Below are positions 39,949 to 53,629 of a DNA stretch of 64,000 bases, in pieces. The notes under the pieces are model-generated. The model made no database searches. It was not told the origin of the DNA and worked only from the letters and a program-made list of their open reading frames with translations. The stretch comes from Nocardia farcinica (GTDB lineage Bacteria; Actinomycetota; Actinomycetes; Mycobacteriales; Mycobacteriaceae). The DNA lies in contig NZ_LN868938.1 of the NCBI RefSeq assembly GCF_001182745.1, positions 2,976,001 to 3,040,000 on the forward strand, read 5' to 3'. Numbering within the stretch: position 1 is the stretch's first letter; every line of letters begins with the position of its first letter. The position numbers were made by a program, and so were the translations under genes.

Positions 39949-41541
39949 ATGTCGGAGATCACGCGCCGGTCCCTGCTGACCGGAGCCGCGGCGGCGGGCG
40001 TGCTGCTCGCCGCCGCGCACAGCACAGGGCGGCAACCCGTGGCCGCCCGCGTCAACCAGATCCCCCTGACCAGGGAAGAACACCGCGCCGTCGTGGTCGG
40101 CTCCGGGTTCGGCGGCGGCGTGAGCGCGCTGCGGCTGGCCCAGGCCGGCGTGCCCGTGCTGCTGCTCGAGCGCGGCATGCGCTGGCCGACCGGCCCCAAC
40201 GCCGAGACCTTCCCGCGCGCCTCGGCGCCGGACAAACGGCTGCTGTGGTACCGGTCCAATCCCAACCTGTTCGGCCAACCGCTGGCGTTCGAGCCCTACA
40301 CCGGCCTGATCGAGGCCGTCGCCGGGGCGAACATGACCGCGCTGTGCGCCGCCGGCCTGGGCGGCGGATCGCTGGTCTACCAAGGGATGTCGCTGCAACC
40401 GGCGCGAGCGGTGTTCGAACTGCACTTCCCGGCCGAACTCGACTGGGACGTGCTGGACCGGGTGCATTTCCCGCGGGTCGCGCGGATGCTCGGCCTCGCG
40501 GTCGCCCCGGACGAACTGATCGACTCCCCCAACTATCTCGCGGCCCGGGTCTTCGCCGACCACGTCCGCAAGGCCGGCCTACCGCTGGACAAGATCCCCA
40601 TGCCGATCGACTGGAACTACGCGCTGGCCGAGTTGCGCGGGGAGATGAAGCCCTCCTACACCAACGGCGACGGCGCGATGGGCGTCAACAACGGCGGCAA
40701 GAACTCCGTCGACGTCACCTACATCGCCGCCGCCGAGGCCACCGGACTGGTCCGGGTGGAAACCCTGCACCAGGTGACCGACGTCGAGCGCGCCGCCGAC
40801 GGCCGCTGGACGGTCCACGTCGACCGGCTCGACACCACCGGCGCGGTGCTCGAGCAGAAGATCATCACCACCGGGGCGCTGATCATGGCCGCGGGCAGCC
40901 TCAACACCACCAAACTGCTGGTGCGAGCCGCCGCCACCGGCCGCATCCCGGACCTGCCCGACGCGCTCGGCCACGGCTGGGGCACCAACGCCGACCGCAT
41001 CTACGCATGGTTCAACCCGGCGGCGAACTTCGGTCGCGCGCAGGGCGGTCCGGTGGTCTACGGCAGCAAGATCTGGGACGACCCACACCGGGCGTGCACG
41101 CTCATCCAGGCCTCCATCCCGCCACTGCAGGTGGATCCGATGAGCACCATGATGGTCGGCTACGGCGTCAGCGCCGACCGCGGGCACTTCGCCTACGACC
41201 ACGCCGCCGAAGAGGCGGTGCTGCACTGGCCCGCGACCGGCGACGCCACCATCCAGAACACCCGCATCGGCCCGCTCGCGCACCGCATCGCCGGACCGGG
41301 CACGGTACTGATCGACACCAACGAGCTCTTCCCCTCCACCTGGCACGCCCTGGGCGGCGCCTGCATGGGCACGGTGTGCGACGTGTACGGACGGGTGCAC
41401 GACCAGCCCGGCCTGTACGTACTCGACGGCGCGCTGATGCCCGGCAACACCGCGGCCTGCAACCCGTCCATGACGATCGCCGCGGTGGCCGAACACGCCC
41501 TCGACACCCTCGTCGCCGAGGACGTCGGCACCGTCATCTGA
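39949..41541 (+). CDS. Tat-exported GMC oxidoreductase (cholesterol-oxidase homologue)
   Basis: A 530-residue flavoprotein. It begins with a twin-arginine signal (TRRSLLTGAAAAGVLLAAA), then the FAD fold AVVVGSGFGGGVSALRLAQAG and GLGGGSLVYQGMSLQP. The C-terminus carries TWHALGGACMGTVCD (catalytic His) and PGNTAACNPSMTIAAVAEHAL (catalytic Asn), as in class I cholesterol oxidases. It would oxidise and isomerise 3-beta-hydroxysterols outside the cell; other sterol-like alcohols are possible. ATG 39949 begins the Tat peptide at the right distance. It ends 22 bp before a palindromic repeat array. Confidence 0.9.
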   Translation: MSEITRRSLLTGAAAAGVLLAAAHSTGRQPVAARVNQIPLTREEHRAVVVGSGFGGGVSALRLAQAGVPVLLLERGMRWPTGPNAETFPRASAPDKRLLWYRSNPNLFGQPLAFEPYTGLIEAVAGANMTALCAAGLGGGSLVYQGMSLQPARAVFELHFPAELDWDVLDRVHFPRVARMLGLAVAPDELIDSPNYLAARVFADHVRKAGLPLDKIPMPIDWNYALAELRGEMKPSYTNGDGAMGVNNGGKNSVDVTYIAAAEATGLVRVETLHQVTDVERAADGRWTVHVDRLDTTGAVLEQKIITTGALIMAAGSLNTTKLLVRAAATGRIPDLPDALGHGWGTNADRIYAWFNPAANFGRAQGGPVVYGSKIWDDPHRACTLIQASIPPLQVDPMSTMMVGYGVSADRGHFAYDHAAEEAVLHWPATGDATIQNTRIGPLAHRIAGPGTVLIDTNELFPSTWHALGGACMGTVCDVYGRVHDQPGLYVLDGALMPGNTAACNPSMTIAAVAEHALDTLVAEDVGTVI

Positions 41542-41563
41542 CCGGCGAAAGGACCGGCCGCTT

Positions 41564-41651
41564 GACCCGTCAGGCTGTGCTCAATTCGCCTGAGCGGGGC
41601 GGCCTCCGTGGTCACGCTGCGCTACCGCCTCCGGCCGCTGACCCGTCTAGG
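41564..41651 (+). repeat. Palindromic repeat array A (one partial and one full unit)
   Basis: A partial unit end (GACCCGTCAGG, 41564-41574) is followed by a full 63-bp unit at 41589-41651 that starts CCTGAGCGGGG and ends CCCGTCTAGG. The right end contains the TAG stop codon of gnd (41647-41649, minus strand). The internal sequence (GCGGCC ... GGCCGC) matches the units at 45365-45585 in reverse orientation and 52148-52287 in the same orientation. It lies between two convergent genes and can fold into a long hairpin. Confidence 0.82.
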
Positions 41652-43089
41652 CGGTGACTTCGCTGCGGTCGCCGCTCCAGAGGGTGTGGTACTTGCCGTC
41701 GGCGTCGATGCGTTCGTAGGTGTGGGCGCCGAAGTAGTCGCGCTGGGCCTGGGTGAGCGCGGCGGGCAGCCGCGGCGAGCGCAGCGCGTCGTAGTAGGAC
41801 AGCGAGGAACCGAACGCGGGCACCGGGATACCGAGCAGGGTCGCGGTGGACACCACGCGGCGCCAGCTGTCGATACCCGCCTCGATGGCCTCGCGGAAGT
41901 ACGGGTCCAGGATCAGGCTCGGCAGCTGCGGATCCTTGTCGTAGGCCTCCTTGATCCGGTTGAGGAACCGGGCGCGGATGATGCAGCCGCCACGCCAGAT
42001 GGTCGCCAGGTCGCCCGGGCGCAGGTTCCAGCCGTATTCGGCGCTGCCCGCGGCGATCTGGTCGAAGCCCTGCGCGTAGGCCACCACCTTGGAGGCGTAG
42101 AGCGCGCGGCGGATGTCCTCGGTGAACTGCTCGACATCGGTGGGGCGGTCGGCGAGGGTGCCCGCGGCCAGGCCCGTGGCGGCCTTGCGCTGGGCGCGCG
42201 AACCCGACAGCGCCCTGGCGAACACCGCCTCGGCGATGCCGGTGACCGGAACCCCCAGATCCAGCGCCGACTTCACCGTCCAGCGGCCGGTGCCCTTCTG
42301 CTCGGCGGCGTCGACGATCACGTCCACCAGCGGGCGGCCGGTCTTGGCGTCGACCTGGTTCAGCACCTCGGCGGTGATCTCCACCAGGTAGCTCTCCAGG
42401 TCGCCGCTGTTCCACTGCGTGAACACCGCGGCGATCTGCCCGGCGTCGAAGCCGAGCGCGTCGCGGAACAGGTGGTAGGCCTCGCCGATCAGCTGCATGT
42501 CGGCGTACTCGATGCCGTTGTGCACCATCTTCACGAAATGACCCGAACCGTCGGGGCCGATGTGGGTGCAGCAGGGGGTGCCGTCGACCTTCGCCGCGAT
42601 GGATTCCAGCAGCGGGCCGAGCGATTCATAGGACTCGGCCGGGCCGCCCGGCATGATCGCCGGGCCGTTGAGCGCGCCCTCCTCGCCGCCGGAGATGCCG
42701 GCGCCGACGAAGTTCAGCCCGCGCTCGCGCAGGGCGGCCTCGCGGCGGATGGTGTCGGTGTAGAGGGCGTTGCCGCCGTCGATGATGATGTCGCCCGGCT
42801 CCATCGCCGCGGCCAGTTCCTCGATCACCGCGTCGGTCGCCTCGCCCGCCTTGACCATGATCAGCACCCGCCGCGGCCGCTCGAGCGCCGCCACGAACTC
42901 CTCGATGGTCTCGGTGCGGACGAAGTCGCCGTCGCCGCCGTGTTCGGCCAGCAGCGCGTCGGTCTTGGCCACCGAGCGGTTGTGCAGCGCGACGGTGTAG
43001 CCGTGCCGGGCGAAATTGCGGGCGATGTTGCTGCCCATGACAGCCAGTCCGGTCACACCGATGTGTGCCCGCGCGGTAGAGGTCGGCAT
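41647..43089 (-). CDS. gnd: 6-phosphogluconate dehydrogenase
   Basis: A 480-residue decarboxylating 6-phosphogluconate dehydrogenase: nucleotide turn GVTGLAVMGSNIARNFARHG, substrate blocks DGGNALYTDT and GISGGEEGALNGPAIMPGG, and the catalytic-region HFVKMVHNGIEYADMQLIGEAY. It converts 6-phosphogluconate to ribulose 5-phosphate with NADP reduction in the pentose phosphate pathway. The length fits the long (480-residue) form. Its stop codon TAG lies inside a repeat unit. ATG 43089 is the family start. Confidence 0.97.
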   Translation of the reverse strand: MPTSTARAHIGVTGLAVMGSNIARNFARHGYTVALHNRSVAKTDALLAEHGGDGDFVRTETIEEFVAALERPRRVLIMVKAGEATDAVIEELAAAMEPGDIIIDGGNALYTDTIRREAALRERGLNFVGAGISGGEEGALNGPAIMPGGPAESYESLGPLLESIAAKVDGTPCCTHIGPDGSGHFVKMVHNGIEYADMQLIGEAYHLFRDALGFDAGQIAAVFTQWNSGDLESYLVEITAEVLNQVDAKTGRPLVDVIVDAAEQKGTGRWTVKSALDLGVPVTGIAEAVFARALSGSRAQRKAATGLAAGTLADRPTDVEQFTEDIRRALYASKVVAYAQGFDQIAAGSAEYGWNLRPGDLATIWRGGCIIRARFLNRIKEAYDKDPQLPSLILDPYFREAIEAGIDSWRRVVSTATLLGIPVPAFGSSLSYYDALRSPRLPAALTQAQRDYFGAHTYERIDADGKYHTLWSGDRSEVTA

Positions 43090-43181
43090 CGATCAGCTCT
43101 CTTCGTTCGACGGTCCGGTGGGTGCGATCAGCCCGGATGCCAAGCTACTAAACGGCGCGTCCCGCGCCGCGACACCCCCGC

Positions 43182-44888
43182 TCAGTCGCAGACCGCGCCG
43201 ACCGAGGCCGAACCGACCAGCTTGGTGTACTTGGCGAGCACGCCGCGGGTGTAGCGCGGCGGCAGCGGTCGCCAGTCCTGTTTGCGCCGCTCGAGTTCGG
43301 CGGGCTCCACCAGCAGGTCCAGGGTGCCCGCGGCCACGTCGAGCCGGATGCGATCGCCGTCGCGGACGAACGCGATCGGACCGCCGTCCACCGCCTCGGG
43401 CGCGACGTGCCCGACACACAGTCCGGTGGTGCCACCGGAGAAGCGGCCGTCGGTGAGCAGCAGCACGTCCTTGCCCAGGCCCGCGCCCTTGATGGCGGCG
43501 GTGATGGCCAGCATCTCGCGCATGCCGGGTCCACCCTTGGGGCCCTCGTAGCGGATGACCACCACGTCGCCTGCGGTGATGGTGCCGTCCTCGAGGGCGT
43601 CCATCGCGGCGCGTTCGCGATCGAAGACCCTGGCCGTGCCGGTGAAGACGTCCTCGTCGAAACCGGCGGATTTCACCACCGCCCCGCCGGGCGCCAGCGA
43701 GCCGGACAGGATGGTGATGCCGCCGGTGGGATGGATCGGATCGTTCAGCGCCCGCACCACCTTGCCGTCCGGGTCGGGCGGGGCGATGTGGGCGAGGTTC
43801 TCCGCGACGGTGCGGCCGGTGACGGTGAGGCAGTCACCGTGCAGCAGTCCGGCGTCGAGCAGGGTCTTCATCATCACCGGCACGCCGCCGATGCGGTCGA
43901 CATCGGTCATCACATGCGCGCCGAACGGCTTGACGTCGGCCAGGTGCGGCACCCGCCTGCCCACCCGCGCGAAATCGTCGAGGGTGAGCTCCACCCGTGC
44001 CTCGTGCGCGATCGCGAGCAGGTGCAGCACCGCGTTGGTCGAGCCGCCGAAGGCCATCACCACCGCTATGGCGTTCTCGAACGCCTCCTTGGTGAGGATG
44101 TCGCGGGTGGTGATGCCGCGGCGCAGCAGCTCGACCACGGCCTGACCGCTGCGGCGGGCGTACCCGTCGCGGCGGCGGTCGGTGGCGGGCGGTGCGGCGC
44201 TGCCGGGCAGCGACATGCCCAGCGCCTCGGCCGCGCTGGCCATCGTGTTGGCGGTGTACATGCCGCCGCAGGCGCCCTCGCCGGGACAGATCGCGCGTTC
44301 GATGGCGTCGACGTCGGCCCGGCTCATCAGCCCGCGCGCGCACGCTCCGACCGCCTCGAACGCGTCGATGATCGTCACCTCGCGCTCGGTGCCGTCGGAG
44401 AGCTTGGCGATGCCGGGCAGGATCGAGCCCGCGTAGAGGAACACGCTGGCCAGGTCGAGGCGGGCCGCGGCCATCAGCATGCCGGGCAGCGACTTGTCGC
44501 ACCCGGCCAGCAGCACCGAGCCGTCGAGCCGCTCGGCCTGCATCACCGTCTCCACGCTGTCGGCGATCACCTCGCGCGACACCAGCGAGAAGTGCATGCC
44601 CTCGTGGCCCATCGAGATGCCGTCGGAGACCGAGATGGTGCCGAACTGCATCGGGAAGCCACCGGCGGCGAACACGCCGTCCTTGCAGCCCTGCGCGAGC
44701 CGGTCCAGCGACAGGTTGCACGGGGTGATCTCGTTCCAGGAGGAGGCGACGCCGATCTGCGGCTTCTCCCAGTCGTCGTCGCCCATGCCCACCGCGCGCA
44801 GCATGCCGCGGGCGGCGGTGCGTTCCAGCCCGTCGGTGACGTCACGGCTGCGGGGCTTGAGGTCGGGGGTGTTCGTCTGCTCGGCCAC
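43182..44888 (-). CDS. ilvD: Dihydroxy-acid dehydratase
   Basis: A 568-residue IlvD-family iron-sulfur dehydratase: [78 protein letters not shown] and [19 protein letters not shown]. It makes 2-oxo acids in isoleucine and valine synthesis. GTG 44888 ([14 protein letters not shown]) is chosen as in relatives. It is divergent from the XRE regulator. Other ilv genes are not in the window. Confidence 0.95.
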
Positions 44889-44997
44889 GGCCCCATCATG
44901 CTCGCTGCGACCGCGCGCCGCCGACGGCCACGCCGAATTCGTCCGCCCAGAGCGTAATCGAGCGCTCGCACCGGGGGCCGGATCGTAGGCTGCGAGC

Positions 44998-45369
44998 ATG
45001 ACCGAGCATCCGAGACTGCACTCGATCCCGGGCGGGCGCGCGGACCGGCGGCCCGAACCCGACACCGCTGCCGAGCCGCTATGGCGGGAGGTGCTCGGCG
45101 AACGCCTGCGCCTGCTGCGCCGCGAACAGGACGAGACGCTGGCCGAGACCGCCGCGCGCGCGGGCATCTCCCCGCAGTACCTCTCCGAGGTCGAGCGCGG
45201 GCGCAAGGAGCCCTCCAGCGAGATGATCGCGGCGCTGGCCGGCGCCCTGGGCACCACCCTGGGCGGGCTGACCGAACTGGTCGCCGACGAGCTGCGGATG
45301 CGGCGGCGCCGCGCCGCCTTCGCCCGGCGCAGCAGCGCGGGCCCCACCCTCACCCTGCGCGCCGCCTGA
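44998..45369 (+). CDS. XRE-family regulator (ClgR/PopR-like)
   Basis: A 123-residue protein with one HTH domain ([53 protein letters not shown], about residues 33-85) and a basic C-terminus. Size and sequence are like ClgR/PopR, activators of clp protease genes in actinobacteria. It is convergent with a clpP2-clpP1-like pair 211 bp away, which supports that role. Its last codons GCC TGA fall inside the first unit of a palindromic repeat array. Confidence 0.85.
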
Positions 45370-45428
45370 GCGGGTCAGCGGCCGAAGGGGGTAGCGCAGC
45401 GTCACCCCCGCAGGCCGCCCCGCTCAGG
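45365..45428 (-). repeat. Palindromic repeat array B, unit 1
   Basis: A 64-bp unit starting CCTGAGCGGG and ending CCCGCTCAGG, a perfect 10-bp terminal inverted repeat. The TGA stop codon of the XRE regulator (45367-45369) lies in its left end. The interior carries GCGGCC and GGCCGC, giving a long imperfect hairpin. It is separated from unit 2 by a 15-bp spacer. Confidence 0.85.
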
Positions 45429-45443
45429 CGAAATCCGACACAG

Positions 45444-45507
45444 CCTGAGCGGGTCAGCGGCCGGAGGCGGCAGCGCAGCGTCACCCCCGCAGGCCGCCCC
45501 GCTCAGG
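45444..45507 (-). repeat. Palindromic repeat array B, unit 2
   Basis: A 64-bp unit nearly identical to units 1 and 3, with the same 10-bp inverted ends. A 14-bp spacer follows. Units are in the opposite orientation to arrays A and C. Confidence 0.85.
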
Positions 45508-45521
45508 CACATCCAACACAG

Positions 45522-45585
45522 CCTGAGCGGGTCAGCGGCCGGAGGCGGCAGCGCAGCGTCACCCCCGCAGGCCGCCCCGCTCAAC
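45522..45585 (-). repeat. Palindromic repeat array B, unit 3
   Basis: A 64-bp unit with left end CCTGAGCGGG. Its right end is altered to CCCGCTCAAC, and the TCA within it (45581-45583) is the stop codon of the minus-strand clpP gene. The outer ends of array B thus supply the stop codons of both convergent genes. Confidence 0.85.
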
Positions 45586-46174
45586 CCCGCGGACTCAGCA
45601 CCGTGTCGATCAGCCCGTATTCGAGGGCGGCGGTCGCGGTGAAGACGCGGTCGCGGTCGGTGTCCTCGCGCAGCTGCTCCGGGGAGCGGCCGGTGTGCCT
45701 GGACAGGATCGCCTCGATCTCGGACCGCATCCGCACCAGCTCGTCGGCCTGCAGGATCAGGTCCGGGATCGGCCCCTGGCCGCGCGCGGCGGGCTGGTGC
45801 AGCACGACGCGGGCGTGCGGCAGCATCGCGCGCTGCCCCGGCGCGCCGCCCGCCAGCAGCACCGCCCCGACCGCGATGGCCTGCCCGACGCAGGTGGTGT
45901 GCACCGGCGCGCCGATGTGCTGCATGGTGTCGTAGACGGCCAGCATCGACGGCAGGTCGCCGCCCTCGCAGTTGATGTAGAAGTTGATCTCCTGGTCGGG
46001 GCTCTCCGATTCCAGGTGCAGCAGCTGCGCGATCAGCGCGTTGGCGACCCCGGAGTCGATCGGCGTGCCCAGGTAGACGATCCGCTCGGCGAGCAGGTGC
46101 GAGTAGATGTCGGTGATGCGCTCGCCACCGCGGGGATGCTGGGCGATGACGTTGGGAATGGTGTAGGTGCTCAT
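45581..46174 (-). CDS. ClpP2-like subunit with catalytic serine replaced
   Basis: A 197-residue ClpP-fold protein, closest in pattern to ClpP2 (DTDRDR, then ALEYGLIDTVL at the C-terminus). The serine block GQAxS is GQAIAVGA, so the nucleophile position is Ala101; the oxyanion-loop SPGG is CEGG (residues 69-72). His126 (VVLHQP) and Asp175 remain. It should be unable to cleave peptides itself but may assemble with the active partner encoded just upstream, whose stop overlaps its ATG. ATG 46174 is chosen. Confidence 0.88.
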   Translation of the reverse strand: MSTYTIPNVIAQHPRGGERITDIYSHLLAERIVYLGTPIDSGVANALIAQLLHLESESPDQEINFYINCEGGDLPSMLAVYDTMQHIGAPVHTTCVGQAIAVGAVLLAGGAPGQRAMLPHARVVLHQPAARGQGPIPDLILQADELVRMRSEIEAILSRHTGRSPEQLREDTDRDRVFTATAALEYGLIDTVLSPRG

Positions 46175-46776
46175 AGCGTGATCCCCACTCGCGGCCGCTG
46201 CGGGACGACCTGGCCGAAGCTGTCGACGATGTGGTCGATGAAGCCGTATTCCTTGGCCTGCGCGGCGGTGAACCAGCGGTCGTGCAGGGAGTCCTCGTAG
46301 ATCCGGGCGTAGGGCTGGCCGGTGTCGGCGGCGATCAACCCGAGCACCGTCTCGACCGTGTGGCGCAGGTCGTCGGCCTGCACCTCCACGTCGACGGCGG
46401 TGCCGCCGATGCCCGCCGATCCCTGGTGCATCAGCACGCGCGCGTGCGGCAGCGCGAACCGTTTGCCCCGGCTGCCCGCCGAGAGCAGGAATTGTCCTGC
46501 GCTGCAGGCCAATCCGAGCGCGAGCGTGGACACCTCGCAGGGCACGAGGCGCATCACGTCGCGGATCGCCAGCATCGCGGGCACCGAACCGCCCGGCGAG
46601 TGGATCCACAGCGAGATCGGCGCCTCGTCGTTCTCGGCGGCCAGCGTGAGCAACTGGGTGGCGAGCAGGGTGCCGTTGTCGTCGTCGAGCGGTCCGTCGA
46701 GCACCAGGATGCGCCTGCTCAGCAGCTGTTCCCGTGCCCGCCAACCGAACAGCGGGGTCTTGTCGTCGTGAGCCAT
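46171..46776 (-). CDS. ClpP1-like serine protease subunit
   Basis: A 201-residue ClpP with an intact triad: Ser92 in LGLACSAGQFLL, His117 in VLMHQGS and Asp166 in LHDRWFT; the SPGG oxyanion loop is present at 60-63. The C-terminal AKEYGFIDHIVDSFG is ClpP1-like. It forms the barrel protease that degrades unfolded proteins handed over by Clp ATPases. It heads an overlapping operon (ATGA) with the dead ClpP2-like gene. This pair is probably a second clp locus besides the housekeeping one, which is not in the window. Confidence 0.93.
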   Translation of the reverse strand: MAHDDKTPLFGWRAREQLLSRRILVLDGPLDDDNGTLLATQLLTLAAENDEAPISLWIHSPGGSVPAMLAIRDVMRLVPCEVSTLALGLACSAGQFLLSAGSRGKRFALPHARVLMHQGSAGIGGTAVDVEVQADDLRHTVETVLGLIAADTGQPYARIYEDSLHDRWFTAAQAKEYGFIDHIVDSFGQVVPQRPRVGITL

Positions 46777-46900
46777 GCCTCCACCCTGCCCCCGCTCGCG
46801 GCCCGCGCGGGGGCCACGCTGCCGTGGGCGGATCTGCTCACAGCAGCGCGACGGTGGGGTACGCGCCGTGCTGCGAGGTATGTCCGAAAACTGCTGGCAA

Positions 46901-46922
46901 GTGCCCCCGGTTCCGGGGGCAC
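46901..46922. promoter_or_regulatory. 22-bp palindrome upstream of the clpP operon
   Basis: GTGCCCCCGG (46901-46910) and CCGGGGGCAC (46913-46922) flank TT, a perfect dyad in the 225-bp gap between the clpP1-like gene and the Tat amidase. With only two loop bases it suits a protein-binding operator better than an RNA hairpin. The ClgR/PopR-like regulator next door is one candidate binder; this is inferred. The rest of the gap shows nothing else recognised. Confidence 0.5.
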
Positions 46923-47001
46923 CGGGTGCTGCTCTGATAGGTTCTGCGCATCGGTTCCGGCCGGTGCATGCTCGTCGTCCGACGAACACTCAGGGGGTCA
47001 C

Positions 47002-48663
47002 GTGCAGTCACCCGTTTCGCGCAGGTCCTTCCTCCGAGGCGCGAGCGTGGGGGCCGCGGTGGGCGCCACGGCGCTGCCCGGCCTCGCGCACGGCGTGCCG
47101 CTGCCGCGCCGGCCCGCGCCCCGGCTGCCCGACCCGGCCACCGTGGCGGCCACCGACCCAGCCATGCTGACCGCGCTGGAGGCCGCGAGCCTGTTGCAGG
47201 CACGCACCCTGCATCCGGTCGATCTGCTCGACGCCTGCCTGCGCCGCAGCGCCGACTACGACGGCGCCACCAACGCCTGGATCCGCACCTACCCCGAGCT
47301 GGCGCACGACCAGGCCGAACAGGCCGCGCAGCGGCTGGCCGCGGGCGACGCGCCGCTGCTGTGCGGACTGCCGATCGCGGTCAAGGATCTCTACGCGGTG
47401 GCCGGATTGCCGCTCACCGCGTCCAGCCGGGTCCTCGACGGCAACATCGCCGCCGGTGACGCGACGGTGTGGCGGCGGCTGCGGGAGCACGGCGCGGTAC
47501 TGCTCGGCCACACCCACACCGACGAGTTCGCCATCATGACCGCCACCCCGCAGGTCGGCAATCCGTGGAAGACCGACGACACCGCGGGCGGCTCCTCCGG
47601 TGGCAGCGCGGCGGCGCTGGCGGCGCGGTACGCGCCCCTGGCGCTGGGCACCGACACCGGCGGTTCGGCGCGGTTGCCCGCCTCCCGCTGCGGCGTGAGC
47701 GCGATCAAGCCGACCTTCGGCCGGTGCAGCAAGTACGGTGTCATCCCGGTGATGTGGACCAGGGACCATCCCGCGGCGATGGGCCGCACGCTCGCCGACG
47801 CGGCGCTGCTGCTGTCGTTCATGGCGGGCGCCGACGCCAACGATCCGGTCACCGGCACCGCGCCGCCGCTGCCCGCGGCCGGGTTCCCGTTCACCGCGCC
47901 GGAGGCGGCGAAACCGCTGGGCGGCAGGGTGTTCGGCGTCCCGGTCGCCGCCGACCGGCTGCCCGCGGAGCTGGGCAGGCTGTTCACCGAATTCCTCGGC
48001 GTCGTCACCGATCTCGGCGGCGAGCTGCGCGAGGTGCGGATGCCCGCCGAGCCGGAGGGCCTGGCCACCGGCGACGCGGTGGAACTCGGCATGTACCACC
48101 GGCAGTGGATCGAGCAGCTCGGGTTGTTCCGGCCGCTCAGCGCGGCCGTGGTCGAGGTCGGGCTGGCCTCACTCGGCATCCCGTCCACGGACTACCTGCA
48201 GTACAGCCGGGCCCGTGCCACCTATCAGCGCGCCTACAACCGCCTCTTCGACGAGGACGGGATCGACGCCCTGGTGCTGCCCGGCGCCGCCACCGACGGC
48301 ATGCCGCGCAGCACCGCCGCCGCGGCCTCCATCCTGGGCGCCGACCATGTCCCGGTCACCTGGGCGAACTACTCCGGCGCACCGGCACTCTCGCTCCCGG
48401 CGGGCCGCTCCCGGGTGACCGGCCTGCCGTTCGGCGTCCAACTGGGTGGGCGGCCGTGGGGCGAGGCCGATCTGCTCCCGCTCGGGCTCGCGATCGAGGC
48501 GGCCGCCCCGCACTGGCGCGATGTGCCGCCCCTGCGACCGAATCCGCGACCGTTGCCGCAGGTGGGGCTCGGCACGCCCGGCCCGGGCCCCGACCCCACC
48601 AACACCGACGCCGCGGCGCCCGCGTTCAGCTTCATCCCCACCACGACCGCCGCGCCGGTCTAG
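47002..48663 (+). CDS. Tat-exported amidase-signature hydrolase
   Basis: A 553-residue amidase beginning with a twin-arginine signal (VSRRSFLRGASVGAAVGATA). The catalytic blocks are PIAVKDLYAVAG (Lys), DTAGGSSGGSAAALAAR (cis-Ser) and GTDTGGSARLPASRCG (Ser). The last ~40 residues are proline- and threonine-rich and may be a linker or anchor region. It would act outside the membrane on amide bonds of unknown substrates. GTG 47002 starts the Tat peptide. It shares no operon with neighbours. Confidence 0.9.
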   Translation: MQSPVSRRSFLRGASVGAAVGATALPGLAHGVPLPRRPAPRLPDPATVAATDPAMLTALEAASLLQARTLHPVDLLDACLRRSADYDGATNAWIRTYPELAHDQAEQAAQRLAAGDAPLLCGLPIAVKDLYAVAGLPLTASSRVLDGNIAAGDATVWRRLREHGAVLLGHTHTDEFAIMTATPQVGNPWKTDDTAGGSSGGSAAALAARYAPLALGTDTGGSARLPASRCGVSAIKPTFGRCSKYGVIPVMWTRDHPAAMGRTLADAALLLSFMAGADANDPVTGTAPPLPAAGFPFTAPEAAKPLGGRVFGVPVAADRLPAELGRLFTEFLGVVTDLGGELREVRMPAEPEGLATGDAVELGMYHRQWIEQLGLFRPLSAAVVEVGLASLGIPSTDYLQYSRARATYQRAYNRLFDEDGIDALVLPGAATDGMPRSTAAAASILGADHVPVTWANYSGAPALSLPAGRSRVTGLPFGVQLGGRPWGEADLLPLGLAIEAAAPHWRDVPPLRPNPRPLPQVGLGTPGPGPDPTNTDAAAPAFSFIPTTTAAPV

Positions 48664-48687
48664 GCAGCTCTCACTCCACCACTTCTC

Positions 48688-49197
48688 TCACTCCACCACT
48701 TCGACGACGTCGCCGGGCCACAGGTATTCGTAGAAGGCCTTGGCGCCCTCGTGCGTCATCCGGACGCAGCCGTGCGACTCCTTCTCGATGGGGCCGACGT
48801 GGAAGGCGATGTCGCCGTTGAAGAACGTGGCGTACGGCATCGGAGCGTTGTGCATGGTGCTCCAATGGAATTCGCGCTTGAACGACACCTTGAAGACCCC
48901 GGGCGGTGTCTCGTAGCCGGGCATGCCGTGTGAGACCGGGGTCGGCCCGTACGTGACGCGGCCGTTGTCCATCAGCCATGCCTCGTTGGTCGACAACCGC
49001 ATGCAGGCCCTGGCCTGGGCCGAACACGGCGCCACCGGGGGCGGCGGCTGGATGATCGCCGGGACGCCGGGAATGTCGGGACCGCCGGGCCACAGGGGCT
49101 CGGCCTGGGCGACGCCGGTGCCGAAACCGGCGGCGGACGCGAGGCCGAGGACGACCGCGAGGCGTCCCGCCCAGTGCCGCTTACGCAATCTGCTCAT
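48688..49197 (-). CDS. Exported L,D-transpeptidase (YkuD domain)
   Basis: A 169-residue secreted protein with a signal peptide (cleavage near AQA, residue 32) and a short YkuD domain. The active site is SHGCVRM with Cys144, preceded by AFHVGP (His133). It forms or remodels 3-3 cross-links in peptidoglycan, or is a related cell-wall enzyme. It lacks the Ig-like domains of the large mycobacterial LdtMt2 type. ATG 49197 is chosen; a GTG precedes it directly. Confidence 0.9.
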   Translation of the reverse strand: MSRLRKRHWAGRLAVVLGLASAAGFGTGVAQAEPLWPGGPDIPGVPAIIQPPPPVAPCSAQARACMRLSTNEAWLMDNGRVTYGPTPVSHGMPGYETPPGVFKVSFKREFHWSTMHNAPMPYATFFNGDIAFHVGPIEKESHGCVRMTHEGAKAFYEYLWPGDVVEVVE

Positions 49198-49325
49198 CAC
49201 GCACCTGCCCTCTCTGCCGGGCGGGCTCCGTTGCACCGCCGGCTGCCGGGAACACCTCGAGGTGTCAGACGATCATGACGACAGCCGGATACCCCGGTCA
49301 AGAGCGCGGTAACGCGCCCCCGACG

Positions 49326-49838
49326 TCAGCGCAGCGGCGGACGCCTGCGAAAGGAGATGTGGCGGTGCCCGAAGAAGCTGGCGACCGCGACCACCGCCAT
49401 CACCCCGAGCGCGGCCGGGATGCGCGGCAGATGCGCGACCTGCACGGCCAGCTGCAACAGCACCATGTTCATCAGCAGCCCACCGGAATTCACCACCACG
49501 AAGGCCACGAAGTCGCGGACCAGCCGCCCGCGCACCCGGAACACCAGCGTGCGGTGCAGGGTGAAGGCGACGACGATGCTCACCGCGTAGGCCAGCGCGG
49601 GCGCGACGGCCGGGCTCACCCCGGCACCGAGCACCAGCAGCCACGCCACGGTCAACGCCATGCCGAGGGCGGTGTTGAACGCACCGACCACCGCGAACGC
49701 CAGCTCCTGCCGCCGCACCACCCGCAACAGCGGGCCGGGATCGGCGCCCGCGTCGCGGGTCTCCGCCGTCGCGGTGGCGGACCGCGGCGGTGGCCAGGCG
49801 GCGGGGGCGTCCGGCGCGCGGACGGCGTCGGCGGTCAT
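49326..49838 (-). CDS. GtrA-family membrane protein
   Basis: A 170-residue protein with four membrane spans in GtrA layout: QELAFAVVGAFNTALGMALTVAWLLVL, APALAYAVSIVVAFTLHRTLVFRVRG, FVAFVVVNSGGLLMNMVLLQLAV and GVMAVVAVASFFGHRHISFR. GtrA proteins help move polyprenyl-linked sugars across the membrane for cell-wall glycan building. Its start overlaps the stop of the large membrane protein (ATGA). About 40 N-terminal residues are disordered. Confidence 0.9.
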   Translation of the reverse strand: MTADAVRAPDAPAAWPPPRSATATAETRDAGADPGPLLRVVRRQELAFAVVGAFNTALGMALTVAWLLVLGAGVSPAVAPALAYAVSIVVAFTLHRTLVFRVRGRLVRDFVAFVVVNSGGLLMNMVLLQLAVQVAHLPRIPAALGVMAVVAVASFFGHRHISFRRRPPLR

Positions 49839-52078
49839 GGTCGCGCGCCGACCAGATCGGGTTCGCGTTCGACGTCCGGCGGGGAGGCGTCGGCGTCGCC
49901 CGAGTCGCCGCGGTCGCGGCGGTCGCGCCGGTACAGCCACTGCAGGAGCGCCACGCCGAGCAGGCCGAGCGCGGCCGCGCCCATCCCCAGCGGCCGACCC
50001 GGCGGCGACCAGGTCAGCTCCAGCTCGGCGTTCTCGGTTCCCGCCGGGATGTCCACCGCGGCGAAGACATTGCCGACCAGGTCGACCGGCACGTCCCGGC
50101 CGTCGAGGGTGGCGCGGTAGCCGGGCCAGCCGAGCCGCGCGAACACCACCCGGCCGCCCTCGGCGCTGCTCACCCGCACCCGGCTGGCGGTGTCGGATTC
50201 GGCGAGCGAGGTGGCCGTGACGCCGGGGGCGGCGGCGACGCGGCCGTCCCGGGTGGACACCGGGCCGTCGATTCGCTCGAGCACCGCGATGTAGCGCTCG
50301 TGGCCCGGGTAATCGACCCACTGCCAGCCCGGCGGCGCGGGCTGGTCGCGCGCGTCCGGATAGAGCGCGCGCTGGAGCACCACACGGTCGATCTTCATCA
50401 GATCGACGATCGTACGGCCGGTGCTCGGCTCGGTGGCGAAGGCGCGGCGGTAGGCGTCGGGACAGACGCTGGTGTCCCAGCGCATGCACAACGTCTCCCC
50501 GAACCAGAAGTGCCCGTTCGGGGTGTAGCCGCCGACGTAGCTGCGCTCCAGGTTCTTGGCGTAATTGCCGAACACCAGCGATCCGTACGCGCCGTCGAGG
50601 CTGCGTTCCTCGGGGCGGATCAGCGCGCGGTCGGCCAGTTGCAGGGTGGTGCCGTCGAAGTCCGGGAAGGCGGCCTTCATCTCCGAACGATGGGTCGGCA
50701 GATTCCAGCCGAGCGGCGTCGGCTGCGCGGCCGACACCTGCGCGTAGGCGATGGGGACCACCGAGACGATCACCACCGCGCAGGCCGCGGTGGCCCGCCC
50801 GCGACGGGCCAGCGCCACCACTCCCGCGCCGAGGACGGCGAGCACGACGACCCAGACCACGTGCCACACCGTCTCGTCGGGCGCCGCGGCGGCCGAACGG
50901 ACCAGCAGCACGCCGAGCAGGCCGCCCGCCACGAGCAGCCGCTTGCGCGCGTCGGCGACGGTGCCGTAGCGGCCGAGCAGCACGCACACCAGGATCAGCA
51001 ACCCGAGTGCCAGCATCGGCAACACCCGGGCGGGCCAGCGCAGCGGACCGATCGCCCCCGGGCCCGCGGTCCACATCAGCACCGCCACCGAGAACAGCGC
51101 GGGAGCGGTGAGTTCCCGCAGTCCCGCCCGCGCCGCGCGCCAGTCCACGAAGGCCAGCCCCGGGATCAGGAACCAGGCGATGTAGACCACCGGCATCGGC
51201 TGCACATACCCCCACCACGAGGTGAAGGCGGGCAGTGTGCTCGGCAGACCGGCATTCAACGACTCCGACCACGGCACGGCCAGCAACTGCTCGTTGTTGA
51301 TCTGCGCGGTGCCGCGCCAGGTGGCCTTGGCCGACAGCAGGCTCGGCAGGTAGGTCATCAACCCGGCCGCGGCCGCGCACACCGACACCAGCGCCAGGCG
51401 CAGCGGACCGCGCCGGTCGCGCTGGTGGATCAGCTCGCCGACGAGCACCGCGCCGATCACCAGCCCCGCCTCCACGGCCGGGAAGATGTACTGCACCGAC
51501 ATCACCAGGTACAGGAACACGAACGTGGGGATCGGCCCGCTGCGGCCACGCGCGTAGCGCACCCCCGAGGCCCAGGCGTGCACCAGCCAGGCGGTGCCGG
51601 TCAGCGCCGTCCACCAGCTGGCCTCGTCGAAGAACAACAGCCAGCCGCTGAACGGCATCGCCACGCCCGCGACCGCCGCCCACGCCGCCCGCGCACCGTA
51701 GACCAGGCACACCCGGTAGACACCGAGCGCGAGGATCACCGCGAAGATCAACTTCACGACGGTGGCGTAGAGCGCCAGGTTGTCCATCGACGGCGCGAGC
51801 AGGTCGATCAGCAACTGTGGCGGGTTGAGCAGACCCGCCTCCTCGATCGTGTAGTTACCCGCCAGCCAGTGCTCGGGCACCATGGTCGGAAACCGGCCCT
51901 CGCGCAGGCTGCGCCCGAGCATGACCCACAGTGGGGCGTACTGGGATTCGGTGTCGTCGGTGTAGAAGTGCCGCGGGTTGGCCGCCAGCACCGCGGCGTA
52001 CCCCGCCACGACACCGAGCGCGGTGATGATGCCCCATGTATAGATGCCTCGCGGAGCGAGCGTTCCCCTGTCCGCCAC
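49835..52078 (-). CDS. Large membrane protein (YfhO/GT-C glycosyltransferase-like)
   Basis: A 747-residue protein with about 12-13 spans in its first ~470 residues and a folded extracytoplasmic C-terminal domain before a last span (LGMGAAALGLLGVALLQWLY). The first loop has HFYTDDTESQYAPLW, where acidic residues sit as in GT-C transferases. The arrangement is like YfhO-type membrane proteins involved in lipoteichoic or arabinan sugar transfer. Its pairing with GtrA suggests a step in lipid-linked sugar use. The acceptor is unknown. It begins just beyond repeat array C. Confidence 0.75.
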   Translation of the reverse strand: MADRGTLAPRGIYTWGIITALGVVAGYAAVLAANPRHFYTDDTESQYAPLWVMLGRSLREGRFPTMVPEHWLAGNYTIEEAGLLNPPQLLIDLLAPSMDNLALYATVVKLIFAVILALGVYRVCLVYGARAAWAAVAGVAMPFSGWLLFFDEASWWTALTGTAWLVHAWASGVRYARGRSGPIPTFVFLYLVMSVQYIFPAVEAGLVIGAVLVGELIHQRDRRGPLRLALVSVCAAAAGLMTYLPSLLSAKATWRGTAQINNEQLLAVPWSESLNAGLPSTLPAFTSWWGYVQPMPVVYIAWFLIPGLAFVDWRAARAGLRELTAPALFSVAVLMWTAGPGAIGPLRWPARVLPMLALGLLILVCVLLGRYGTVADARKRLLVAGGLLGVLLVRSAAAAPDETVWHVVWVVVLAVLGAGVVALARRGRATAACAVVIVSVVPIAYAQVSAAQPTPLGWNLPTHRSEMKAAFPDFDGTTLQLADRALIRPEERSLDGAYGSLVFGNYAKNLERSYVGGYTPNGHFWFGETLCMRWDTSVCPDAYRRAFATEPSTGRTIVDLMKIDRVVLQRALYPDARDQPAPPGWQWVDYPGHERYIAVLERIDGPVSTRDGRVAAAPGVTATSLAESDTASRVRVSSAEGGRVVFARLGWPGYRATLDGRDVPVDLVGNVFAAVDIPAGTENAELELTWSPPGRPLGMGAAALGLLGVALLQWLYRRDRRDRGDSGDADASPPDVEREPDLVGARP

Positions 52079-52111
52079 GAGTTCCAGACCCTACAGGCAC
52101 CCCCGCACCCC

Positions 52112-52287
52112 TCCGGGCGCTGACCCGCTCAGGCGGTGTCGACTGTGCCTGAGCGGGGCGCCCTCCGTGGCCACGCTCCGCTACCGCCTCCGGGCGCTGA
52201 CCCGCTCAGGCGGTGTCGACTGTGCCCGAGCGGGGCGCCCTCCGTGGCCACGCTCCGCTACCGCCTCCGGGCGCTGACCCGCTCAAG
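52112..52287 (+). repeat. Palindromic repeat array C (one partial and two full units)
   Basis: A partial unit end (52112-52133) is followed by full 63-bp units at 52148-52210 and 52225-52287, with 14-bp spacers. Unit ends are CCTGAGCGGG/CCCGCTCAGG in the first and CCCGAGCGGG/CCCGCTCAAG in the second. The right end of the last unit contains the TGA stop codon of the wax-ester synthase (52283-52285, minus strand). The whole 204-bp gap to the large membrane protein gene is repeat apart from about 33 bp next to its start. Confidence 0.85.
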
Positions 52288-53629
52288 CGGCTTTCTCCAG
52301 GTCCGTGAGGCCGTCCTCGAGATGGCCGAGCAGGCGTTGCAGGTGCGGGACGCTGCGGCGGCAGCCGACGATGCCGAAGTCGAGGTAGGCGTCGCGGCTG
52401 CTCACGGTGATGTTGACGGCCTGCCCGTCGAGCACGATCGACAGCGGATAGTTCCCGTCCAGCCGGGCGCCCTGCCAGTACATCGGCACCCGCGGGCCGG
52501 GCACGTTGGAGATGACGATGTTGAACGCGGGCCGGGTCGCGGTGACGAAGCCGGGCAGGCCGACGAGTCCGAGCGGCGCGATCATCAACGCCGACACCGC
52601 CAGCGCGAGCGGCCGGGGCAGGGCGCTCATCTGTTCCTTGCCGATGCGGGCCGATTCGCTGATCGCGGTCAGCCGGGCGGCGGGGTCGGCCAGATCGGTG
52701 GCCAGGTTGCACAGGATGGTGCCCACCCGGTTGCCGCCCTCGTCGGACTCGTCCTCGGTGCGCAACGACACCGGGACCATCGCCACCAGCGGGGTGTCGG
52801 GCAGCGCGTCGTTCTCGATCAGGTAGGCGCGCAGCGCCGCGGCGCACATGGCCAGCACCACGTCGTTGAGGGTGACGCCGGTCCGTTCCCGGATCGCGGC
52901 GATCCGCTCCAACGGCCAGGACTGGGCCGCGCAGCGCCGTGCGCCGCCGATGCGGACGTTGAGCATGGTCTTCGGTGCGGAGAACGGCAGCAGCACCTCG
53001 TGTTCGGCCAGTGCCGTCCTGGCCAGCGCCAGCGTGGCGGGCGGGGTGCGGGCCACGTCCCTGGCCAGCCCGGTCAACCACGAGCGGTCCCCGCCGCGGC
53101 CACCGGATTCGCGCGGCGGGAGGTTCCAGGGCACTCGCAGCTCCGGCGAGTCCGGATCCTCGTCGAGGGTGCGTTGCAGCATCCGCAGCGCCGACACGCC
53201 GTCCATCAGCGCGTGGTGCAGCTTGGTGTATACCGCGAAGCGGCCGTCGGCCAGCCCTTCCACCAGATGCGCTTCCCACAGCGGCCGATGCCGGTCCAGC
53301 AGGGTGCTGTGCAATTGCGAGGTGAGCTCGAGCAGTTCGCGCACGCGGCCGGGCCGGGGCAGGGCCGAGCGGCGCAGGTGATAATCCAGATCGACGGTGT
53401 CGTCGGTGGTCCACGCGATATTTCCGAATCCGCCGAAAATTCGCGCCGGGTGTTTACGGAAGGTGGGCCGGAATTCGGTTGCCTGGCACACTTTCTCGTA
53501 CATCGACCGCACGTAGTCCGGATCGCCGTCCGGCGGCGGGCTGTACAACTGCAACGCTCCGACGTGCATGGGATGTTCGCGGGACTCCGCCAGCAGGAAC
53601 ATCGAATCGGTCGGCGACATCCACTGCAT
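52283..53629 (-). CDS. Wax ester synthase/diacylglycerol acyltransferase
   Basis: A 448-residue WS/DGAT: MSPTDSMFLLAESREHPMHVGALQLY at the N-terminus, the catalytic HHALMDG (residues 138-144), and later ISNVPGPRVPMYWQGARL and the NITVSSRDAYLDFGIVGCR block. It transfers acyl groups from acyl-CoA to fatty alcohols or diacylglycerol to make storage lipids at the membrane. GGAGGACGTC precedes ATG 53629. It is divergent from a LuxR-type regulator. Its stop lies inside repeat array C. Confidence 0.94.
   Translation of the reverse strand: MQWMSPTDSMFLLAESREHPMHVGALQLYSPPPDGDPDYVRSMYEKVCQATEFRPTFRKHPARIFGGFGNIAWTTDDTVDLDYHLRRSALPRPGRVRELLELTSQLHSTLLDRHRPLWEAHLVEGLADGRFAVYTKLHHALMDGVSALRMLQRTLDEDPDSPELRVPWNLPPRESGGRGGDRSWLTGLARDVARTPPATLALARTALAEHEVLLPFSAPKTMLNVRIGGARRCAAQSWPLERIAAIRERTGVTLNDVVLAMCAAALRAYLIENDALPDTPLVAMVPVSLRTEDESDEGGNRVGTILCNLATDLADPAARLTAISESARIGKEQMSALPRPLALAVSALMIAPLGLVGLPGFVTATRPAFNIVISNVPGPRVPMYWQGARLDGNYPLSIVLDGQAVNITVSSRDAYLDFGIVGCRRSVPHLQRLLGHLEDGLTDLEKAA

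Follow-up and report, generated by a model that had tools for sequence, protein, structure and literature searches.

A probable MIRU-like family of small mobile repeats targeted to stop codons in Nocardia

Mycobacterial interspersed repetitive units (MIRUs), which are used to type tuberculosis bacteria, are defined as repeats that have inserted, oriented with the gene, into NTGA stop/start sites. Supply et al. in 1997 reportedly gave a DTGA target rule for MIRUs, along with their orientation with the gene; to our knowledge, the mechanism by which they move is an open question. Many short hairpins at gene ends are also characteristic of REP/BIME and RAYT systems, and MITEs and the enterobacterial RU elements are likewise short and mobile, have palindromic ends and in some cases carry ORFs. 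One account (PMC4213456) gives MIRU copies as 53-77 bp in length and arranged in tandem, and confines them to M. leprae and the M. tuberculosis complex; a second (PMC12548453) describes an insertion wherein the ORF of the unit is coupled to the next gene. These two and PMC2734929 and PMC4128351 depict a MIRU architecture resembling that of the Nocardia repeat described below.

Three arrays of one hairpin repeat were located at 41.6, 45.4 and 52.2 kb of the window (the whole 64-kb stretch of DNA that was analysed) by repeat search, genome BLAST and a covariance model, R1, built from 58 units. Gene ends were taken from a codon-model caller trained on stretches of the host genome (G000) and applied also to the other genomes; gene names were taken from Pfam. 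The features of the three arrays are:

41647..43056, minus strand: gnd (6-phosphogluconate dehydrogenase; Pfam PF00393/PF03446), host gene of array 1
41588..41652, minus strand: full unit of the gnd array, beginning at the gnd TAG (41649..41647); R1 81.0 bits, E 3.4e-13
41554..41577, minus strand: partial second unit (~23 nt, read from the sequence) that ends the gnd array and faces a convergent GMC oxidoreductase gene (39949-41541)
44998..45369, plus strand: XRE-type regulator (Pfam HTH_3), host gene of array 2
45364..45429, plus strand: unit 1 of the XRE/clpP array, beginning at the XRE TGA (45367-45369); R1 81.2 bits
45443..45508, plus strand: unit 2 of the XRE/clpP array; R1 83.6 bits
45521..45586, plus strand: unit 3 of the XRE/clpP array; R1 72.7 bits
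45581..46174, minus strand: clpP (Pfam CLP_protease), converging on array 2
46171..46174, minus strand: ATGA overlap of two clpP genes, empty here and filled in other Nocardia
52283..53629, minus strand: wax-ester synthase/DGAT (Pfam WS_DGAT_cat, WS_DGAT_C), host gene of array 3
52224..52288, minus strand: unit 1 of the wax-ester synthase array, beginning at the TGA (52285..52283); R1 82.3 bits
52147..52211, minus strand: unit 2 of the wax-ester synthase array; R1 87.0 bits
52110..52133, minus strand: partial third unit (~23 nt) of the wax-ester synthase array, preceding a co-directional 747-aa gene (49835-52078)

The window contains five full units, one nearly full unit and two partial units; the arrays of the preliminary description are real, and its count of five full and two partial units fell short by the one near-full unit. 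Its statement that the unit begins at the stop codon of the upstream gene held for all three arrays (gnd TAG, XRE TGA and wax-ester synthase TGA). The units run head-to-tail in tandem with a period of 77-79 bp in the window, composed of the hairpin plus a ~14 nt spacer; across the family the period is mostly 75-79 bp. The far arm of unit 3 in the XRE/clpP array (TCA 45581-45583) is at the same time the TGA stop (45583..45581, minus strand) of the convergent clpP gene. A known Rfam RNA family was rejected as the identity of the repeat: the search of 41400-52500 with 4227 Rfam models gave two sub-threshold matches, neither of them at the arrays. The host genome was taken to be Nocardia, the closest named relatives by gnd among the 80 loci kept being N. 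carnea at 90% and N. rhamnosiphila at 89%.

About 100 repeat units are present in the 6.46 Mb host genome. The R1 model gave 101 matches with E no higher than 1 (among 150 scored of 15535 first-look candidates), and 59 stretches of this genome yielded 105 units in 58 arrays, with units of nhmmer E at least 0.02 left out of the array counts; six stretches (L185, L187-L191) were without a repeat match. The T of the first unit was the first base of the upstream gene's stop in 42 of the 58 arrays (41 TGA, one TAG), whereas gene stops accounted for 268 of the 1279 non-coding TGAs (0.21) in the same stretches plus the window (P = 6e-17 for the array excess). Sixteen arrays were off a called stop, five of them starting 16-42 nt past it; among the other 11, L178 begins 5 nt and L182 8 nt ahead of a called stop and the remaining ones have none near. 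Inspection by eye of L031 and L062 showed a decayed unit that begins on the stop itself. For other genomes, where 67 arrays were reduced to 60 by removing seven arrays on six duplicate loci, 39 began exactly on a stop (27 ATGA, 10 CTGA, 2 GTGA) and 21 were not on a called stop. The placement of arrays on stop codons is beyond chance; the preliminary description had set itself against random placement or an absence of further copies, and neither was found genome-wide.

Variant units were seen at several loci. Changed unit starts (TGGGCG in L065, L069 and L089; TGAGCGA in L066) begin 10 nt past the stop (43 nt in L065), and L066, L069, L089 and the second array of L065 have in common a tail around ATGTACGCAGCGA, possibly a distinct element. 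A four-unit array at L175:3035-3310 has a divergent core (GTTTCC replacing GTCACC) and no TCA bulge; it is a subfamily within the host genome and likewise begins on a stop. In one unit, at L177:3382-3456, 25 bp of the core are duplicated internally.

The apparent target of the repeat is GCNTGA, because the last sense codon was GCN in 34 of 42 array genes compared with 44 of the 305 other genes that end in TGA (P 9e-22). In non-coding DNA this sequence is often an alanine codon plus a TGA stop. GCCTGA occurs 152 times outside the arrays, 30 of these being non-coding or stops, and 23 of the 30 are gene stops. Since non-coding GCCTGA sites are mostly gene stops anyway, a sequence target combined with selection against insertion within genes may account for the preference for stops with no need for the stops themselves to be recognised. 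GCATGA is the empty state of the clpP junction in several species, and 15 of the 24 XRE relatives listed end with GCC TGA, with several of these relatives, including the nearest two, aligned in part only. Six array genes of the host genome were matched in the 1.19 Mb examined of the near relative G032: gnd and L039 end there with GCC TGA and have no unit (the L039 ortholog is 95% identical and lacks the unit that the host genome has), and the other four (L036, XRE, L041 and a weak match, L288) have, between them, CTC, GGC, TCC and CGA before the TGA. As just two of the six end with GCC TGA, the alignments indicate GCN before insertion at a few sites only.

Filled and empty sites were compared at the clpP2-clpP1 junction, readable in 28 of 30 loci. 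Thirteen were empty (an overlap or at most 5 nt, the host genome being counted among them), eight had a unit (including the weak L232, E 0.013) and seven had other spacers. Single copies were present in L235 and L236, with ATG-to-ATG distances of 74 and 71 nt, and tandem copies in L229 (three), L237 (four) and L245 (three). There was no unit directly past the gnd stop in 31 other Nocardia loci, nor directly past the XRE stop in 24 of 24 relatives listed, some of them aligned partly. Core copies, counted with up to 3 mismatches, numbered 0-78 per genome (median 11) and totalled 1820 against 4 control matches; 114 of 118 Nocardia genomes had them, the exceptions being G026, G035, G058 and G504. 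The host genome has 78 core copies; the two nearest of 58 sampled genomes by gnd (95%), G032 and G054, have 5 and 2. Of the roles suggested in the preliminary description, that of a mobile repeat specific for its target site and inserting at gene ends is supported by these filled and empty sites between species, by the expansion in one lineage, and by the recurrent GCNTGA target. Units were more alike within an array than between arrays (94.6% versus 83.3% identity), which fits local tandem multiplication.

The proposal that the unit folds into a long hairpin was borne out: the stem is long and, like its core, conserved, and it is interrupted by a TCA bulge. For 58 units, 95.6% of the cells of the helix were paired compared with 88.9% after shuffling, and 9 pairs were changed on both sides compared with 2.9 in shuffles; slid controls gave 36-46%, a comparison biased towards the structure because it was derived from the same sequences. 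RNAalifold alone predicted a related stem in which the outer pairs are fewer. Such a strong conserved hairpin, and the enrichment of arrays between convergent genes in the host genome (26 of 42 versus a baseline of 168 of 416, Fisher P 0.009), would suit an element acting in cis at 3' ends, be it a terminator, an attenuator or a hairpin for RNA stability, that selection retains at gene ends. However, a search of 41400-52500 for intrinsic terminators (GC hairpin plus T-tract) gave one site, at 43258, away from the three arrays, and in other genomes the gene that comes after a stop-starting array mostly runs the same way (35 co-directional, 8 convergent, 2 with none, before duplicate removal), with the relay frames described below retained. 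A terminator before a co-directional gene would cut off the next gene, so a classical terminator is unsupported; moreover, a given site may be filled in one species and empty in another, and copy number varies from 0 to 78 within one genus. A terminator was among the roles that the preliminary description had offered; a terminator-only function was set aside owing to the co-directional arrays and the filled and empty sites. We consider a selected 3'-end element improbable; the conserved stem, as modelled, would be compatible with an RNA-stability role.

How mobile repeats of this kind might be moved was considered from the enzymes encoded in the genomes. The Nocardia repeat resembles REP/BIME in consisting of many short hairpins at gene ends, and being bulged, abundant and oriented to the gene, it might be an element of REP type whose mobility comes from a REP-associated transposase of the Y1 (HUH) class. 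Y1_Tnp (PF01797) matches were indeed present in 9 of 59 Nocardia genomes searched, including the near relative G054, but were absent from the host genome, with its 78 core copies, and from 49 of the others; it also differs from REP/RAYT systems in that the unit begins on the stop codon and is repeated head-to-tail in tandem. A Y1/RAYT enzyme as resident mobiliser was largely refuted by the lack of a PF01797 match in the host genome, and we hold this explanation to be extremely unlikely, though a lost HUH enzyme, or a divergent one outside PF01797, could conceivably be involved. With MITEs and RU elements the repeat has in common that it is short and mobile with palindromic ends; it differs in the stop-codon target, in an arm that mirrors the host codon, and in having no identified transposase partner.

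The far ends of arrays are often partial, and clean two-ended transposition is therefore not seen at many sites of the host genome. A fixed start together with many truncated last units is the pattern that would be expected of target-primed copying of a small RNA, with its fixed junction at the stop and variable far end; yet the truncations may be later decay, two of the clpP sites (L235 and L236) look like complete single inserts, and RVT_1 (PF00078), found in 18 of the 59 Nocardia genomes, was absent from the host genome and 40 others. An RVT_1 retroelement was rejected on the lack of a PF00078 match in the host genome, and target-primed copying appears very unlikely.

Units match the end of the gene next to which they lie in two respects. 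The base before the TGA of the second unit was that of the host gene in 50 of 51 arrays; for the host genome alone this was so in 23 of 24, although 22 of these have C throughout and the match there therefore says little. In 59 of 68 arrays, the last codon of the host gene reappeared as its reverse complement in the three bases past the far-arm TCA, a result reached by 0 of 20000 permutations (which ignore the relatedness of sites); the corresponding numbers were 27 of 33 arrays in the host genome, reached by 10 of 20000 permutations, and 7 of 11 arrays where the host codon is neither GCC nor GCA. Copying of the target at insertion, later correction of the palindrome, or selection on the helix could each produce the mirrored codon. 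More speculatively, the repeat may exemplify a class of elements that use stop codons as landing sites and capture the last codon of the host gene, with an enzyme outside Y1 and RVT_1 copying the target into the element; we offer this as a tentative idea that is rather doubtful at present.

At ATGA-type arrays an ORF of the unit begins on the ATG of the ATGA. Twenty-eight such arrays were identified, and 26 had a co-directional next gene, one of these 26 (L260) coming from another family of the order. The stop of the ORF overlapped an in-frame ATG or GTG of the next gene in 16 of the 26 (in 6 of these 16 the in-frame start sits 14-137 nt upstream of the start chosen by the caller), the ORF was fused in frame to the next gene in 8, and 2 showed neither. 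A relay in 24 of 26 arrays, compared with the two thirds expected for a random frame (P ~0.003), is suggestive, not overwhelming, as a sign from the reading frames that the relays are kept open beyond chance. The relay would be irrelevant at most arrays of the host genome, because 36 of its 42 stop-starting arrays are CTGA-type and 26 of 42 are convergent; the window arrays, too, are not ATGA-type.

We compared these properties with those of MIRUs. The two are alike in the exact starts on stops in the gene's orientation (42 of 58 arrays in the host genome, one on TAG, and 39 of 60 elsewhere), in the small ORF overlapping the neighbours (overlap in 16 and fusion in 8 of 26 ATGA-type arrays) and in tandem arrays whose copy number differs between genomes (one, three or four at the clpP site). 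They differ in that the Nocardia unit is a longer bulged palindrome with covarying arms and a GCNTGA bias, without detected sequence homology to MIRU, and is also common at convergent ends in the host genome, where coupling is irrelevant. The MIRU core pattern used as query was found in 20 of 397 genomes of the order, all in genus g2 (probably Mycobacterium), and many of the sites read there adjoin or sit on TGA stops. The 20 genomes (L354-L373) are of ~4.4-7.3 Mb and have this MIRU-type core despite the restriction stated in PMC4213456.

Descent of the Nocardia repeat from the mycobacterial MIRU family was weighed against these data. Like behaviour in unit length, NTGA sites, orientation, tandem arrays and an ORF overlapping both neighbours speaks for it, as does AGCGNAGCG, which is common to the Nocardia and MIRU cores. 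On the other hand, a Nocardia profile gave no match below E 0.25 in the 20 MIRU-core loci, with none of the 10 matches listed lying at the MIRU core; the score of one MIRU-type site aligned to the Nocardia unit was reached by 76 of 500 shuffles; and R1, run against 298 genomes with 17 candidates scored per genome under strict filters, matched only in genera g1 and g39 (seven g1 genomes and one genome of another family). A clear Nocardia-type unit, of ATGA type and fused in frame to the next gene, lies at L260:1501-1563 in G327, which belongs to a different family of the order. Identity with MIRU by sequence was rejected after the profile search and the shuffle-tested alignment, and membership by descent seems unlikely. 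Judged from the sequences, the Nocardia repeat would work like MIRU, a likeness that does not by itself imply descent from it.

We conclude that the arrays most probably represent a new, MIRU-like Nocardia family of stop-codon-targeted small mobile repeats with the apparent target GCNTGA. Insertion would take place at GCNTGA, presumably by a dedicated activity, and as the unit itself opens with TGA, the upstream gene would retain its own C-terminus and stop. At overlapping ATGA stop/start junctions the small ORF would end in the start of the next gene or fuse to it in frame, so that translational coupling can be retained, and the relay, open as a reading frame, may be translated. Copies would then multiply in tandem in place, and their survival may mainly reflect harmlessness.

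No description of this repeat was found in the titles and abstracts of the literature searched, a search outside which many subscription papers lie. In 114 of 118 Nocardia genomes, then, a second family, not recognisably related to MIRU in sequence, follows a similar rule. With 78 core copies in one genome and 5 and 2 in its nearest relatives, pairs of filled and empty sites are available from which target, junctions and the copying of the host codon can be read off directly. The repeat suggests a near-harmless strategy for a mobile element, which is to land on a stop codon, restore the stop, and pass the ribosome on.
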